Source of the DNA: Cyanidium caldarium | Lineage: Eukaryota > Rhodophyta > Bangiophyceae > Cyanidiales > Cyanidiaceae | Assembly: GCA_026184775.1 (NCBI GenBank) | Contig: JANCYW010000001.1 | Location: 682,001-746,000, forward strand | Direction of reading: 5' to 3' | Length of the DNA: 64,000 bases | In this document: positions 57,757 through 64,000 of the stretch, piece after piece | How positions within the stretch are numbered: position 1 is the first letter of the stretch | How the letters are laid out: every line of letters begins with the position of its first letter | Program-made: the position numbers and the translations under genes | The notes under the pieces: model-generated | Told to the model about the DNA's origin: nothing | The model's database searches: none | The model's input: the letters and a program-made list of their open reading frames with translations, nothing else

Positions 57757-58114
57757 GGAGAGAGAGGAAGCGCAGCACACGGTCAGCCACTGGGAATCAC
57801 GGTATGCAGCACGCCTGTGAGAGTGATGCCAGCGAGTCGCGGGGTGCAAGTGCGGGAGATGCCGACTCCGAGCGGTGTGCGACGGTCGTGGACACGACAC
57901 GCATGCGCGAGAGCGGGTCGTGCCGCCCGCGCAACGGGAACCGTTTCGGCCATCTCTAGATCATGTACATTATGAGACATTTACCCGGGTATGCACGGAC
58001 GGCGCGCCCTGCAGCTGCGTACGCGTCACCTCCTGGCCCTGTCACCGCCGCTCCCAGGAGGCCGCTCAACGTGCTGGAGACCCGCCGGCACTGCTGCAGC
58101 AACTCACCTACACC
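57757..58114. promoter_or_regulatory. Divergent promoter region, APC13 / SecE
   Basis: This 358-bp gap lies between outward-facing genes. It is open in the SecE frame back to 57875 without a better ATG. No other feature was seen. Confidence 0.4.
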
Positions 58115-58843
58115 ATGACTCGACGCTTGCCTGGTTGGCCACTGGAGACTCTGGCGTTCACGCTCAGCCGACTGCCGGATGCCCGTCGTCCGCGCACGGA
58201 GTGCCGAACACCCCATTCCTCCGCCAGTCGGCTGTGCGGCGCGCGTTGCCGTCCAGCTCACGGCGCGTGTGGTTTCTCTTCCCGATGGCTGGGCATTCGA
58301 CGTCACATCATGCCCGCTGCTGCCACTCGCCGCCGACATTCACCCCGGCGGGTGCACCCGCTGGTGTGCATCCGGCTGGACGCAGACGAGGAGGAGGAGG
58401 AGTCGGTGGAGCTGCCCGACCCCGAGGACATCCCCGAAGAGATGCTGCAGTTGGATATTCCGCTAGAGCAGTTGCAAGAGATGCTGGGCGTGAAACCCCG
58501 CGGCAGCGACACCGTGCCCGAGCTGCTCGGGGAGAACGCCGGGGACGGCATGAGCTCCCTCCAAGAAGTGGACCGTGACGCGGACGAGGGGTGGAACGAC
58601 CGACAGAGGGCCGAGATCGAGCATATCCGACGCGTGGCCCACATCCGCAAGCAGCCCATGTCGGCGTATAGGCGAAGGATCGCCGAGACAGTGGAGGAGT
58701 TGCGCATGGTGGAGTGGCCCAACGCGAATACCGTGTTGCGACTCACGGTTGCCACCATCGCGCTGTTAATCGTCATGTCGATCTTTTTGTACTCGGTGGA
58801 CACGTTTTTCTCGTGGGCGATCAACCTCTTCCTGACGGACTAG
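58115..58843 (+). CDS. secE: SecE subunit of the plastid Sec translocase, nuclear-encoded
   Basis: SecE clamps SecY in the thylakoid Sec translocase. The 242-residue protein ends in the conserved SecE block: ETVEELRMVEWPNANTVLRL (amphipathic helix and hinge) and one membrane helix (TVATIALLIVMSIFLYSV), then a short tail FFSWAINLFLTD. Before it are an acidic region (ADEEEEESVELPDPEDIPEE) and an Arg-rich N-terminus that should act as plastid leader. The ATG at 58115 lies in CACC-ATG-A. The N-terminal 80 residues contain another ATG (MPAAATRRR), so leader length is uncertain. Extended N-terminal regions are known in plastid SecE. Confidence 0.88.
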   Translation: MTRRLPGWPLETLAFTLSRLPDARRPRTECRTPHSSASRLCGARCRPAHGACGFSSRWLGIRRHIMPAAATRRRHSPRRVHPLVCIRLDADEEEEESVELPDPEDIPEEMLQLDIPLEQLQEMLGVKPRGSDTVPELLGENAGDGMSSLQEVDRDADEGWNDRQRAEIEHIRRVAHIRKQPMSAYRRRIAETVEELRMVEWPNANTVLRLTVATIALLIVMSIFLYSVDTFFSWAINLFLTD

Positions 58844-59193: not shown

Positions 59194-59946
59194 TTACAGC
59201 GGGATGTCCAACTCCAACTCATATGCCTCCGTCGACTCCCGCTGACTCGGCTGCCGCTTCTTCCACGGCGGCTTCATCCGGTACACCGGATACTTGGCCA
59301 GGTTGAGCAGTTTCTTCGGCCGACCGGTCTTTTCGTCCAGCTCCGGCGTAGGTGGCTCCCAGTCGTCGCACTCCTGCCCGAACTCGTCGCGCATCTTCGG
59401 CAGCGTCAGCCACGACAGCAGTGGCGCCCGCTCCGCCAGCGGCGGCCGTAGGTTGGCGAACACGTTCCACCGCGCCACCTCCTTCAACACCTCCCGACTG
59501 AACTTGGGCTTCGGCTCCGTGACCTCCGCCGCCACTCGACCGCTGCCGTTGCACGGCACACAGGAAATCAAGCCGGTCTGCACACACAGAGTGCACGGCA
59601 GCGTCACTCGAAAGAACAGCAGCGCCACGTGCTCCTTGCGCCGCCCCACACACTTGGGACATCCCAGCCGCCCGTACCCGTTGCACACCTCACAAGTGCG
59701 GTACTCGGCGTCGTCTCCCGATCGCCCGCTGAATACCCCGCTCAACGCCTTTAGTGTCGGTGACTCATGGATGTCCATGAGGGTGGAGAGGCACTCCGTG
59801 GCCCCCGGGCGCGAACGATGAGGCAGGCGGTGACCGCTGCGAGGCCCGCCCGTGGCCGCGCGTCGTCTCCGCAGGCGCGCCGTGGGAGCCGCGACGCGTT
59901 TCGACGGTGCGTTGGTCGCGCGCAGCGCCAGGAAAGAAGCGTCCAT
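59194..59946 (-). CDS. DnaJ-type zinc-finger protein, BSD2-like, plastid-targeted
   Basis: The 250-residue product has a DnaJ-type cysteine-rich module at about residues 85-140: CEVCNGYGRLGCPKC, CTLC and CVPCNGSGRV, four CxxC pairs with two CxxCxGxG-like repeats. This occurs in BSD2, the plastid chaperone of Rubisco large subunit, and in related thylakoid proteins. No J-domain is present. The N-terminus MDASFLALRATNAPSKR followed by an Arg-rich stretch fits a red algal plastid leader. The C-terminal half (KFSREVLKEVARWNVFANLRP, LAKYPVYRMKPPWKKR) is unlike BSD2 and suggests a distinct subfamily. ATG at 59946, only 60 bp from the divergent GUCD1 start. A Rubisco-assembly role is inferred from the fold only. 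Confidence 0.75.
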   Translation of the reverse strand: MDASFLALRATNAPSKRVAAPTARLRRRRAATGGPRSGHRLPHRSRPGATECLSTLMDIHESPTLKALSGVFSGRSGDDAEYRTCEVCNGYGRLGCPKCVGRRKEHVALLFFRVTLPCTLCVQTGLISCVPCNGSGRVAAEVTEPKPKFSREVLKEVARWNVFANLRPPLAERAPLLSWLTLPKMRDEFGQECDDWEPPTPELDEKTGRPKKLLNLAKYPVYRMKPPWKKRQPSQRESTEAYELELDIPL

Positions 59947-60006
59947 GCAGGTGGCGTTGTCGTGCAATCGTATGGGGTGAGTCGGGCGGTCATAACGGGA
60001 CGGGGC

Positions 60007-60843
60007 ATGCGATGGCCACGGTTACGAGTCTTTCACGGTAGGGAGCACGGACTGGAGAGCGCTTCGCGCCGGGCGACGGGCTCGCGCGACGATGCGTCGT
60101 GGTGTGCGCTGGGCCGAGTGCCGCGCCACGTGCCACAGCGACACTCGTGGGATTGCGGGCTAGCGTGTGTGGCGCTGGTGTTGGAGTGCCGCGGATGGCG
60201 ACCGATACCGCTGTCGATGTTGATGGCGCGGGCGGGCACGCGGTCGGTGTGGAGCATCGATTTGGTGCACGTGTTGCGCACTTTCGGAGTGCGCCCGCTG
60301 CTCTTTTACACGAGTTGTGCGGGTGTGCGCCCGGAGTACGCGCGGCTGGCGTTTTATCAGCGGCACCTGAAGCGCGACACGGGGCGAGTGCGCGAGCGAT
60401 TCGCCCAGGCCGAGGCCGACGGGACGGTGATCGAGCTGCGCGAGCTGTCCAGCGCCGACCTCGTGCGCCTGGTGTGCGAGGGCGTGACGTTGCCGACAAA
60501 GACGGCCGCCTCTCACACGAAAGCGCTGGTTATTGCGCTGGTGGACCAGCGCTACTTGCTGCGGCAGTATGCGGCGCTGGCGCCCAAGCGCTGGTGGCAG
60601 CGCCTGTGGCCCGCGAGCGACCCGCTCGTTGGCGATGCGGCGGTGTCTCCCGCACATGTACTGCCGTCCGAATCGTTCGTTGGCCATTACGTCGTTATCC
60701 TGGGCTACGACGGCCTCCGCGACGAATACCTGCTCAACGACCCCGCCCAGCGCACGCATCCCTGTCGCGTGCCGCGTCTTCTGCTCGACGTAGCCCGCTC
60801 CGCCTACGGCACCGACGGGGACACCATCGTCATTCCCCTCTAA
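60007..60843 (+). CDS. GUCD1: GUCD1-family protein (guanylyl cyclase-like cysteine-protease fold)
   Basis: The 278-residue protein matches the family named guanylyl-cyclase-domain-containing 1, also known from plants (AtGC1). The hallmark is QRHSWDCGLACVALVLE with the family Cys, then RSVWSIDLVHVLRTFGV, FYTSCAGVRPEYA, and near the end FVGHYVVILGYDG and LLNDPAQR. The Cys / His / Asp pattern resembles papain-like peptidases more than nucleotide cyclases, and the cyclase role of the family is debated; the real activity is unknown. Length is close to the usual 240-270 residues. ATG at 60007 was chosen; another ATG at 59818 would lie inside the neighbouring opposite-strand gene. Subcellular location is not evident. 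Confidence 0.88.
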   Translation: MRWPRLRVFHGREHGLESASRRATGSRDDASWCALGRVPRHVPQRHSWDCGLACVALVLECRGWRPIPLSMLMARAGTRSVWSIDLVHVLRTFGVRPLLFYTSCAGVRPEYARLAFYQRHLKRDTGRVRERFAQAEADGTVIELRELSSADLVRLVCEGVTLPTKTAASHTKALVIALVDQRYLLRQYAALAPKRWWQRLWPASDPLVGDAAVSPAHVLPSESFVGHYVVILGYDGLRDEYLLNDPAQRTHPCRVPRLLLDVARSAYGTDGDTIVIPL

Positions 60844-61413
60844 ACACCCACACCTGCACAGCGAGAAAGTGGTGGATCCCGACGTGATGTGCGGCCGCCG
60901 CGACCAGCCTCTCTGGCAGAGGCGCCGCTGAGCGCTGAGAGCACCACCGCCACCACGCCAAGCCACCTCCCCGCATCACCCCATCACGTCCTTGAAGCCC
61001 GTCGCCCTCTGTTCATCGTGTCCCCGTCCGTCGACCCGGCGCCGGCCACGTCGCGTTCCAAGCGGCGCCGGTTCCTTGGGACGGGACGGTTGCTCTTGGC
61101 TGTTGTAGGCTCATCGAGAGAGCCATCCAGGCAGGGCCGCCTTTGGTGGCAATGGTATTCCCAAAGGGCCCCGTGGCAGTTTGCAGCCGTGGTGAAAAGT
61201 GACGTCCACGCGCGCGAGCGCGAGGCAGTGCGCGTCTCACGACATGACCGTGCGTGCACCGCGCGCCCGTCGACCCGCCGAATCCGCGAAATGCGCGGGA
61301 CGCGGCGGGCCTTCACCACAACGCAGCGGAGCGGGGCTTTGGTGCATTCGTATTCGGCGCGGCGGATGAGGAGAGGAGCGGTGAGGCGGGTGTGGAACAA
61401 AATTCCCGAGGAA
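60844..61413. promoter_or_regulatory. 5' region of FANCI gene
   Basis: This 570-bp gap lies between two plus-strand genes. The FANCI frame is open back through at least 61081, with in-frame ATGs at 61291 and 61366, so up to 123 bp of it may be coding. The remainder shows no feature. Confidence 0.4.
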
Positions 61414-64000
61414 ATGGATACAAGTACGGAGGATCCGGGGGATAATTTTGGTATGGAGTTGGGAGAGTTGTCGGAGGCGTTGGGAGCGTTGGAAACGGCG
61501 GACGACAGCTCGGCCGGGATGGCGGAGGGGGCCGGTCGGATGTTGCGGTGTGCGGTGGCCACGCTGTTTGCGGGGACAGAGCAGAGCGCACAGCCGGAGG
61601 CGTTTGTGTCGCAGTTTGGCGTTGCCTGTGTGGCACCAGCGGAGTTGGTTATTTATAGGCTGAGTCGCCAGTTGCCACGAGGCGAGGCTGCCGCGGCGCT
61701 GCAGCGCACCGCCGAGGCGATCACCACGGCGCTGGAACGATTCCTGCAGCCACCGACGGACGCCGCAAATGGCGCGTCGTGGTCGACCAGCGGGTGGCGT
61801 GCTCGCGTTTGTCATTGGGCGGTGGACTTGCTGGGCACGGTGATGCGCGCTTTGCGAGGAGATGCGGCGTCCGTGCGCGCGCTCTTCGATCGCCTCATCG
61901 ACCGGGTGCCGTGGGCGGAGGGCGTTGCGGTGCCGCTTCAAGACGTGTTCACCGCCTGTCACGAGGTGCTGTTGGCGCAGGAGGTTGCCGAACCGACGGT
62001 CGGTTCGGTGGACGCGCGTCTGGCGGCCAAGCTGCTGGCCGACTGCGCGCACTGGCCGGATGCCGTGGAGTTTCCCGGCCTGGTGCGCGCTATCGCCGCT
62101 TCGTTGCGCGCCATCATGGAACAAGCGTCCACATTGGCAACGGGCGCCAACGAGCTCAACGCCTCTCGCCAGGTGTGGAGCGCGGCGTTGCGTCGTCTGT
62201 TTGCGGTGGCACCCGACGATGCCCTGCCGGATATGTGGTGCGTGCTGGAGATGGAGGCGGCGGCGACGCCTGCATTGGCCACCGCGTTGCTCACGTCCAT
62301 GCACCGCGATGAAGCGCAGAGCGCGCTATGCCTCTGCGAGCACTCCGGTACGCAGCGTCGACGTCTGCCAGCGGTCGATCTGGCCATGTGTATGGCTTGC
62401 AGTGCGATGGACGTCGCTCAGGTGGCCGCCGCCGCCACCGAGCACGCGGCCACCTTGTTGTGGGCGCAGTACACCGCGAGCGACGCGCCAGCGTCCGCCT
62501 TGGCGTCGCTGATCGGCGAGGCGGTGCGAATGCCAGGCATGGAGCGCGCGGCGGCATCCGTCGCGGAACTGGGCTTTGCCTGGATGGTGGCCGGCGATGT
62601 CGAGCCGCCGCGACGCCTCCCCTCCACACCGAGCGTCCGAGCGGATGCGCCCAACGTCAACGTGCAGCCGGTGCGCATCCGTCGGCGCGGCCGCAAGCGC
62701 CAACATCGCGACGGCTCCCGTCGCCACGCCCTGCTGCAACATTGCGGCGTGCTGCTATTGGAGCAGCTGCTGGTGCAGCATCGCGATGCCCGCCAGGAGG
62801 TGTTGTGCGCGTGTCTGACGGCCATGGCCGATCCCTCGCTGCCGTTGCCCGCGCGCACGGCGTGCTGTGCGGTGATCGAGCGCGTGGCTCTCTCACGCAC
62901 CCACCGCCTGCTGTTGCAGGAGTTCACCGTCAAGCTGGTGGAGTGGGTTCAGGCGCTGGCGGTGGACATTCCGCTGGCGCTGACCAAGCGGTTGCTGGCG
63001 GCGCTGGCCCCGCTGGCGGTGCTGTGGCCACCGCTCGGCGACGCGCTGATGCTTTATCTGCGCAAGTTGACGGCGTCGCGGGCCGTGCGGGCGCGCCGCC
63101 TCGGTGCGCACGGCCTGGCGTGTCTGTTGTCGGCGCCGTACATCGCGGCGGCCACGGAGGACGAGGTGGTGCGCGCCTACCTGCGGGCGCTGGACACTGC
63201 GCCGGGCCCGGTGCGGGCCGAGGCGTTGCTGGCGCTGGCGGCGGCGTTGCGCTGTCGGTCACTGCGGGCGCCCGTGCTAATGCAGCTCAAGGGCGGCCTG
63301 GCGGATATGTTGGCGCAGCTGACGAGCGCCAACGAGGCGCACTCGCCGCCGCACCATCTCGACTTGAGTCGCTGTTTTGCGGACGGCGGGGTGCAGGTGG
63401 AAGCGGTGGCCGAGCTGGTGCGCTGTGCCGCGGCCATGCCGCTGTCGGCCGATGTGGGCGGGCCGTCGCAAGCGTCGGGCACGGCGGTGGCGCCAGCCGA
63501 TGTCAGCGGCCACTTTCTGTACGGATTGTTGACGACGCTGGTGGACGACCTGGCCGACAGCCGCGCGTCGTTGCGCCTGATAGGGCTGGACCTGCTGTTG
63601 CAGCGGCCGCCGCCGCATGCGGGCCTGCCGCCGCTGGTGGAGCGGGTGCGCATCGCCCGCACGCGCTGTGAACTGGCCGCCAAACTGTACGAGACGGTGC
63701 TGGACACCGGTTGCGGCTCCATGGCCACCGAGCGGCTGCTGCAGCAGTACGGCTGTCTGACGCAGCTGATCGACACGCTGCTGCCGTCGTTGGTGCATTC
63801 GGCGATGCGCAGCGGGCGCGACGCCTTTGCGCACGTCACCGTGGGCCAGATGTGCCGCAACGACCATGGCAATCAGAGGGGAGGGGAGGTGTCGACCGCC
63901 GAGGTGGCCGAGACGCGGGCGCACTGCGCTCGCCGTGAAAACGGCGCGGAGCATCCCTCTGCCGAACATCACCACCACCACCACCACCACCACCGTCCTT
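61414..64000 (+). CDS. FANCI: Fanconi anaemia protein FANCI, 3' end missing
   Basis: FANCI pairs with FANCD2 in the clamp that coordinates DNA interstrand-crosslink repair. The frame is open to the window edge (862 codons), helical throughout with the solenoid pattern of FANCI. The order of segments matches human FANCI as I remember it: SVAELGFAWMVAGD, HCGVLLLEQLLVQHRDARQEVL, FTVKLVEWVQALAVDIPLAL, LTKRLLAALAPLAVLW, GDALMLYLRKLTASRAVRARR and YLRALDTAPGPVRAEALLAL. The lysine that receives ubiquitin in vertebrates (in the context DARKSAVAGF) is replaced here by Arg at codon 63097-63099. A poly-His run encoded by CAC repeats is at 63967-63993. ATG at 61414 was used; ATGs at 61366 and 61291 are in frame upstream. 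No intron is needed. Confidence 0.82.
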   Translation, partial: MDTSTEDPGDNFGMELGELSEALGALETADDSSAGMAEGAGRMLRCAVATLFAGTEQSAQPEAFVSQFGVACVAPAELVIYRLSRQLPRGEAAAALQRTAEAITTALERFLQPPTDAANGASWSTSGWRARVCHWAVDLLGTVMRALRGDAASVRALFDRLIDRVPWAEGVAVPLQDVFTACHEVLLAQEVAEPTVGSVDARLAAKLLADCAHWPDAVEFPGLVRAIAASLRAIMEQASTLATGANELNASRQVWSAALRRLFAVAPDDALPDMWCVLEMEAAATPALATALLTSMHRDEAQSALCLCEHSGTQRRRLPAVDLAMCMACSAMDVAQVAAAATEHAATLLWAQYTASDAPASALASLIGEAVRMPGMERAAASVAELGFAWMVAGDVEPPRRLPSTPSVRADAPNVNVQPVRIRRRGRKRQHRDGSRRHALLQHCGVLLLEQLLVQHRDARQEVLCACLTAMADPSLPLPARTACCAVIERVALSRTHRLLLQEFTVKLVEWVQALAVDIPLALTKRLLAALAPLAVLWPPLGDALMLYLRKLTASRAVRARRLGAHGLACLLSAPYIAAATEDEVVRAYLRALDTAPGPVRAEALLALAAALRCRSLRAPVLMQLKGGLADMLAQLTSANEAHSPPHHLDLSRCFADGGVQVEAVAELVRCAAAMPLSADVGGPSQASGTAVAPADVSGHFLYGLLTTLVDDLADSRASLRLIGLDLLLQRPPPHAGLPPLVERVRIARTRCELAAKLYETVLDTGCGSMATERLLQQYGCLTQLIDTLLPSLVHSAMRSGRDAFAHVTVGQMCRNDHGNQRGGEVSTAEVAETRAHCARRENGAEHPSAEHHHHHHHHHRP

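Follow-up and report, generated by a model that had tools for sequence, protein, structure and literature searches.

Within the Fanconi pathway, the monoubiquitination of FANCD2 is presented as a key biochemical step in PMC2730050, which also describes a minimal Fanconi anemia (FA) pathway in Dictyostelium discoideum. This organism, like Cyanidium caldarium, possesses FANCD2, FANCI, FANCL and UBE2T outside the animals; its FncD2 is monoubiquitinated in an FncL-dependent manner (PMC2730050), whereas the canonical FANCD2 site of C. caldarium carries no lysine. Cyanidioschyzon merolae is mentioned in the legend of a conservation figure of the same article, and the word lysine is absent from its main text (PMC2730050). 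For Arabidopsis, PMC12541362 reports that FANCI Lys520 is conserved among plants and animals. Arabidopsis FANCI resembles the C. caldarium protein in being a plant-lineage FANCI, and the tree of that article includes a red-algal sequence (PMC12541362); C. caldarium has an arginine where Arabidopsis has Lys520. In the open-licence PMC literature, no paper was found that deals with the acceptor lysines of red algae, Cyanidiales included.

The FANCI gene of C. caldarium runs out of the 64,000-nucleotide stretch of DNA that was analysed (hereafter the window). Its open reading frame starts at the ATG at 61414 on the forward strand, codes for 1546 AAs and ends at the window-equivalent position 66054, beyond the window; an in-frame ATG further upstream, at 61291, would give a protein of 1587 AAs. 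The earlier note had identified the product as a red-algal FANCI homolog, which is borne out by both profile and structure searches. The Pfam FANCI_S2 profile (cut-off 37.8 bits) matches the whole protein with 38.5 and its in-window part with 39.8 bits. FANCI_S2 is the only Pfam domain found on the whole protein at E<=1, and in a genome scan with this profile the FANCI ORF was the sole match at E<=1 (43.5 bits). As for the relatives, P0002 scores 38.8 bits, while the close relative P0001, with 36.7, falls slightly under the cut-off of 37.8. A FANCI-type helical solenoid fold is predicted by AlphaFold2 and Foldseek: the model of residues 200-760 has a mean pLDDT of 54.2 (86 in blocks 550-569), and the eight best Foldseek matches of the model are all FANCI or FANCD2 chains. 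A phmmer search of the PDB with the solenoid 2 region retrieved five sequences, all of them FANCI, at E values (0.085-0.73) that are not significant alone. With whole proteins as queries against the PDB, FANCI was not recovered significantly: its chains appeared at E 0.29-0.69 amid unrelated ones, and two further searches gave no match at E<=0.1. The features within the window are collected in Table 1.

Table 1 Coordinates of the FANCI features in the window, with the evidence for each.
Feature	Position in window	Strand	Evidence
FANCI gene, part within window	61414..64000	+	ORF; FANCI_S2 38.5 bits, whole protein
FANCI solenoid 2 match, residues 384-568	62563..63117	+	Pfam PF14676
Lys551 (AAG), candidate substitute acceptor, 11 residues upstream of acceptor position	63064..63066	+	alignments
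Helix bearing acceptor position, residues 558-572	63085..63129	+	AlphaFold2 model, pLDDT 79-86 in these blocks
Arg562 (CGC) at vertebrate FANCI Lys523 position	63097..63099	+	translation; alignments

The assembly totals 8.79 Mb in 20 contigs, and the window is part of its contig C1. Against this figure for C. caldarium, PMC9812998 has 12.0 Mbp for Cyanidium and 8.8 Mbp for Cyanidiococcus, in an order that may be swapped. By eye, the neighborhood of FANCI includes a protein with a SecE-like C-terminal membrane segment (57875-58843, forward strand), a protein with DnaJ-type CxxCxGxG zinc motifs (59194-59967, reverse strand) and, adjoining FANCI, a C39-like or plant guanylyl-cyclase-1-like protein (59767-60843, forward strand). 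Residues 852-860 of FANCI (window 63967-63993) form a run of nine histidines, of which P0001 has three and P0002 and P0008 none; the run is a variable codon repeat.

The position of human FANCI K523 is occupied in C. caldarium by Arg562, numbered from ATG 61414. An arginine at residue 562 had been claimed in the earlier note for codon 63097-63099, where CGC is read, and the gap-free alignment with the vertebrate acceptor region claimed there recurs in all five phmmer alignments to PDB sequences, e.g. RKLTASRAVRARRLGAHG over RKAMFANQLDARKSAVAG. The vertebrate LDARKSAVAG stands over VRARRLGAHG, with the acceptor lysine on Arg562, and within this gap-free block the RK before the site and the A-x-x-G after it are conserved. 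Arg occupies the acceptor position in all four FANCI sequences found (C. caldarium, P0001, P0002 and P0008), which makes a sequencing error unlikely, and the three relatives at hand thus show the arginine that the earlier note had named as one half of the support for its idea. These show 93% (P0001), 35% (P0002) and 35% (P0008) identity with C. caldarium FANCI in the alignment, P0002 and P0008 being 70% identical to each other. P0008, which is CCYA07G1997 of Cyanidiococcus yangmingshanensis, was found at E 0.13, and its placement in the family is based on 35% identity over 1429 columns and the precomputed PF14676 assignment. The relatives are those found by protein searches that scored the 7993 candidates with the most shared words and are a non-exhaustive set; for FANCI as for FANCD2, the sample consists of few sequences, with Galdieria and mesophilic red algae outside it.

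The 41-column block around the FANCI site is 66% identical to P0002 and 68% to P0008, which corresponds to the 98.5th and 99.7th percentile of such windows, respectively. The acceptor position is thus maintained as Arg inside a strongly conserved block. In the AlphaFold2 model, Arg562 comes fifth in its helix. The nearest lysine is K551, 11 residues off, a position that is Lys in all four FANCI sequences and also in the vertebrate FANCI of the phmmer alignment.

The FANCD2 gene is located on contig C4 and encodes a protein of 1413 AAs that scores 87.1 bits with the FancD2 profile (cut-off 27); its seven best PDB matches are FANCD2 chains (59-71 bits). At the position of human K561 it has Gln732 (codon CAG), in the local sequence VVYQRIGCVAAA. 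The human sequence around K561 is YKLIGIIG. Gln is found in all three Cyanidium-type sequences (C. caldarium, P0004 and P0006), and the lysine-rich out-group FANCD2 P0007, which reads NYKIIGIYG, has the acceptor lysine. Identity with C. caldarium FANCD2 in the alignment is 90% for P0004, 31% for P0006 and 20% for P0007; P0003 and P0005 represent the query protein itself, C. caldarium FANCD2, and stand outside the counts of relatives, P0005 being a shortened model with a differing C-terminal part. Since the phmmer alignments to human FANCD2 do not extend over the acceptor site, the residue was assigned, over a short motif, by the alignment with P0007, the human motif and the structural model. 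The alignment is anchored by K722, ten residues upstream of Q732 and Lys in all four FANCD2 sequences, and the nine residues on either side of Q732 contain no Lys. The block around the FANCD2 site, with 39% identity to P0006 (83rd percentile) and 37% to P0007 (93rd percentile), is less conserved than that around the FANCI site. In the FANCD2 model the acceptor position is the fourth residue of a helix, as compared to the fifth in FANCI, the helix geometry is alike, and in both models the retained lysine (K722 or K551) is near the end of the helix that precedes the acceptor helix. When the alignments of FANCI and of FANCD2 were compared as profiles, the match had a probability of 0.1, over a C-terminal region, and the acceptor sites were not aligned to each other; this comparison is uninformative, and the correspondence of the two sites is therefore based on the models and the motif.

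It is very probable that both canonical acceptor lysines of ID2 have been replaced, by Arg562 in FANCI and by Gln732 in FANCD2, in which case ID2 would not be ubiquitinable at its classical sites. The earlier note had offered two consequences, control of ID2 in an older, ubiquitin-independent way or through FANCD2 only. The latter, with only FANCI having lost its acceptor, would agree with the vertebrate FANCI site being the more dispensable one (PMC9890228); however, it fails because the FANCD2 acceptor is also replaced, in each of the three Cyanidium-type sequences, and its rescue would take an alignment error of at least ten residues, which leaves it a very slight chance. An error of sequence alignment, the true acceptor being another, wrongly placed lysine, is similarly hard to sustain. 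It could draw on the lack of significant FANCI matches in the whole-protein PDB searches, on the block matches that do not reach significance alone and on the failure of the two sites to align in the profile comparison. Set against this are the gap-free block with its flanking motifs, the Pfam profile that scores over its cut-off and reaches residue 568, the distance of the nearest lysines (11 residues in FANCI, 10 in FANCD2) and the similar helix geometry of the two models.

A further protein, of 1164 AAs, is encoded on contig C13 (L041:470-3961; C13:222469-225960), with FancD2 scores of 14.5 bits in the genome scan and 12.7 bits on the protein, under the cut-off. In the PDB it matches, at E<=1, only two sequences, both FANCD2 (E of about 0.19, residues 53-323). 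It may be a second, very divergent FANCD2-like protein and was considered as a possible paralog carrying the missing lysine; however, AMRKHLPWGDPLAFSL, which by eye would be its counterpart of the acceptor region, has no Lys after RK.

Lysine is scarce in these proteins. It makes up 0.78% of FANCI and 0.71% of FANCD2, as compared to 2.70% in the 17 E2 domains (UBE2T included) and 2.16% in the 10 USP domains of the same genome. In a window with a GC content of 66%, 21 ORFs of at least 350 AAs contain 1.50% Lys and 11.1% Arg; these ORFs were not checked as genes, one of them (62328-63671) overlaps FANCI in another frame and FANCI itself is not among them. The share of Lys in Lys plus Arg is 0.08 in FANCI and FANCD2, 0.15-0.18 in P0002, P0006 and P0008 and 0.70 in P0007. 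P0007 has 105 lysines, 84 of which have an aligned C. caldarium residue, and this residue is Lys in 7 of the 84. The loss of a lysine is thus the default in these proteins, and the arginine in FANCI alone is therefore weak evidence.

Some lysines have nevertheless survived. In FANCI, K206, K525, K551 and K1482 are Lys in all four sequences, and in FANCD2 this is true of K722, K1326, K1341, K1342, K1352 and K1372, P0007 included. PCNA served as the single control. The human PCNA segment is SCAKDGVKF, with the ubiquitin/SUMO acceptor K164 and with K168; the C. caldarium protein reads SVSKEGVRF, so that the acceptor lysine is kept and the neighboring one (K168) is Arg. Unlike K164 of PCNA, the ID2 acceptor lysines were evidently not retained, as far as one control can be extended.

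The replacements could on this account be mechanistically meaningless, a GC-rich, Arg-favoring mutation having removed lysines that already had no role from an FA module that is relaxed or decaying. The GC content, the Lys and Arg contents of the window ORFs, the low share of Lys in FANCI and FANCD2 relative to P0007 and their Lys content below that of the E2 and USP domains all speak for such a drift. However, the survival of the PCNA acceptor and of the ten lysines listed above does not, and FANCI, FANCD2, FANCL and UBE2T have uninterrupted reading frames of the expected length. Unlike in decay, the block around the FANCI site exceeds almost all other parts of the protein in conservation, and drift alone does not account for this; we regard it as an improbable explanation.

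FANCL of C. caldarium is a protein of 426 AAs with matches above the cut-offs to FANCL_C (89.3 bits), d3 (85.8 bits) and d2 (45.5 bits), and a d1 match of 17.6 bits under the cut-off of 23.8; its architecture is that of three UBC-like domains, d1 being sub-threshold, and a RING-type C-terminal domain. Among the 17 UQ_con matches in the genome, L016 is UBE2T: its six best PDB matches (174-178 bits, top 177.9) comprise five named UBE2T and one named HSPC150, another name of UBE2T, and the next E2 follows at 120.1 bits. Both enzymes look intact by sequence in the one genome examined for them, that of C. caldarium, and the loss of FANCL and UBE2T, which the earlier note had named as support for its idea, is thus not borne out. 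The genome also encodes a WDR48/UAF1 C-terminal domain (91.5 bits) and has 12 UCH matches, one of which, compared with the PDB, is USP12/46-like (337 bits versus at most 126 for USP1), while the others were assessed by eye only; USP1 was not found in these comparisons and may still be present. UAF1 does not imply USP1, because USP12/46-type enzymes also use it. A VRR_NUC match (77.8 bits) corresponds to the nuclease domain of FAN1, a domain that is not FAN1-specific. A search of the genome for FANCE gave no match, and neither did its controls.

Two further observations concern these enzymes. A weak FANCL_C match of 24.3 bits, under the cut-off, lies at C6:160808-160939 (L006) in an open frame of 2110 AAs, which is perhaps, at a guess, another RING ligase such as listerin. 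FANCL (L005:1495-2775) has a single Lys and the UBE2T domain (L016) none in 152 residues. Lysine deserts have been described in the literature for ubiquitin enzymes, but composition may explain the near-absence of Lys in FANCL and UBE2T.

In the closed state of the vertebrate clamp, FANCI R1285 forms a salt bridge with FANCD2 E1365, according to PMC7332966. E1365 of human FANCD2 aligns with E1345 of C. caldarium, and Glu is present in all four FANCD2 sequences aligned. All four FANCI sequences share an identical C-terminal motif, LRSRN-x-YID, and human R1285 presumably stands in a similar context. Since E1345 is kept, we infer that the clamp may still close on DNA.

A clamp that closes could do so without any ubiquitin, ID2 relying on protein-protein contacts alone, with Arg and Gln as fixed substitutes and FANCL-UBE2T kept for a different substrate. 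We consider this unlikely, albeit less so than drift. It would account for a FANCI site block that ranks among the best conserved windows in spite of the loss of both canonical acceptors, it is in line with the kept E1345 of the closed-state arm contact, and DNA binding has been proposed to let some ID2 close before ubiquitination (PMC7332966). On the other hand, FANCL and UBE2T look intact, and the literature passages at hand name no other conserved FANCL-UBE2T substrate. In vertebrates the loss of the FANCD2 site is described as being as bad for survival as that of FANCD2 itself (PMC9890228), and the conservation of the site can also stem from its burial in the open-state interface (PMC7588663). 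In its full form, in which the ID2 of Cyanidiales closes and stays closed with neither subunit ubiquitinated, Arg and Gln were fixed before the split of Cyanidium and Cyanidiococcus and FANCL-UBE2T turned to another substrate, the proposal is somewhat less probable still. If it were true, a ubiquitin-free ID2 with a redirected ligase would be a case in nature of the clamp being uncoupled from its tag.

We propose, with a probability of roughly 0.4, that FANCL-UBE2T owes its retention to a continued modification of ID2, at a different lysine. The canonical acceptor lysines would have been lost from both subunits, the clamp would still close on DNA, and the retained FANCL-UBE2T would ubiquitinate ID2 at another lysine. 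K722 of FANCD2 and K551 of FANCI are the leading candidates, because no other lysines are closer to the sites and because Lys occupies both positions throughout the FANCD2 and FANCI sequences aligned. A shifted acceptor would explain the retention of a dedicated FANCL-UBE2T pair. Lysine is so rare in these proteins that, without selection, any given Lys would be expected to disappear, which counts against a shift. The retention of K551 may be structural, because this residue is Lys in vertebrates too, where K523 is the acceptor. In human mutants there is no hint of a neighboring lysine taking over, at least in the available part of PMC9890228, and FANCL-UBE2T may have another substrate. The shifted acceptor and the ubiquitin-free clamp are the two readings left, both of them predictions from sequence and models, and the ubiquitin-free one is the more novel.

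C. caldarium shares with the vertebrate ID2 and FANCL-UBE2T system a FANCI and a FANCD2 of similar length and predicted fold, a FANCL with UBC-like and RING-type domains, UBE2T, a WDR48/UAF1 C-terminal domain and the equivalent of E1365. It differs in the acceptor lysine, which vertebrates have in both subunits and C. caldarium has apparently replaced by Arg in FANCI and Gln in FANCD2. A clamp and, in C. caldarium, a ligase that are kept without either classical lysine would pull apart two issues that are linked in animals, namely whether ubiquitin is dispensable for the clamp and what is recognized by FANCL-UBE2T. Both could be addressed in Cyanidioschyzon merolae 10D, called genetically tractable in PMC13353863, provided that its FANCI and FANCD2 carry the same replacements. 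Hot-spring red algae could thus show whether the clamp needs its ubiquitin tag, as placed on both subunits in vertebrates, or bears the tag elsewhere.
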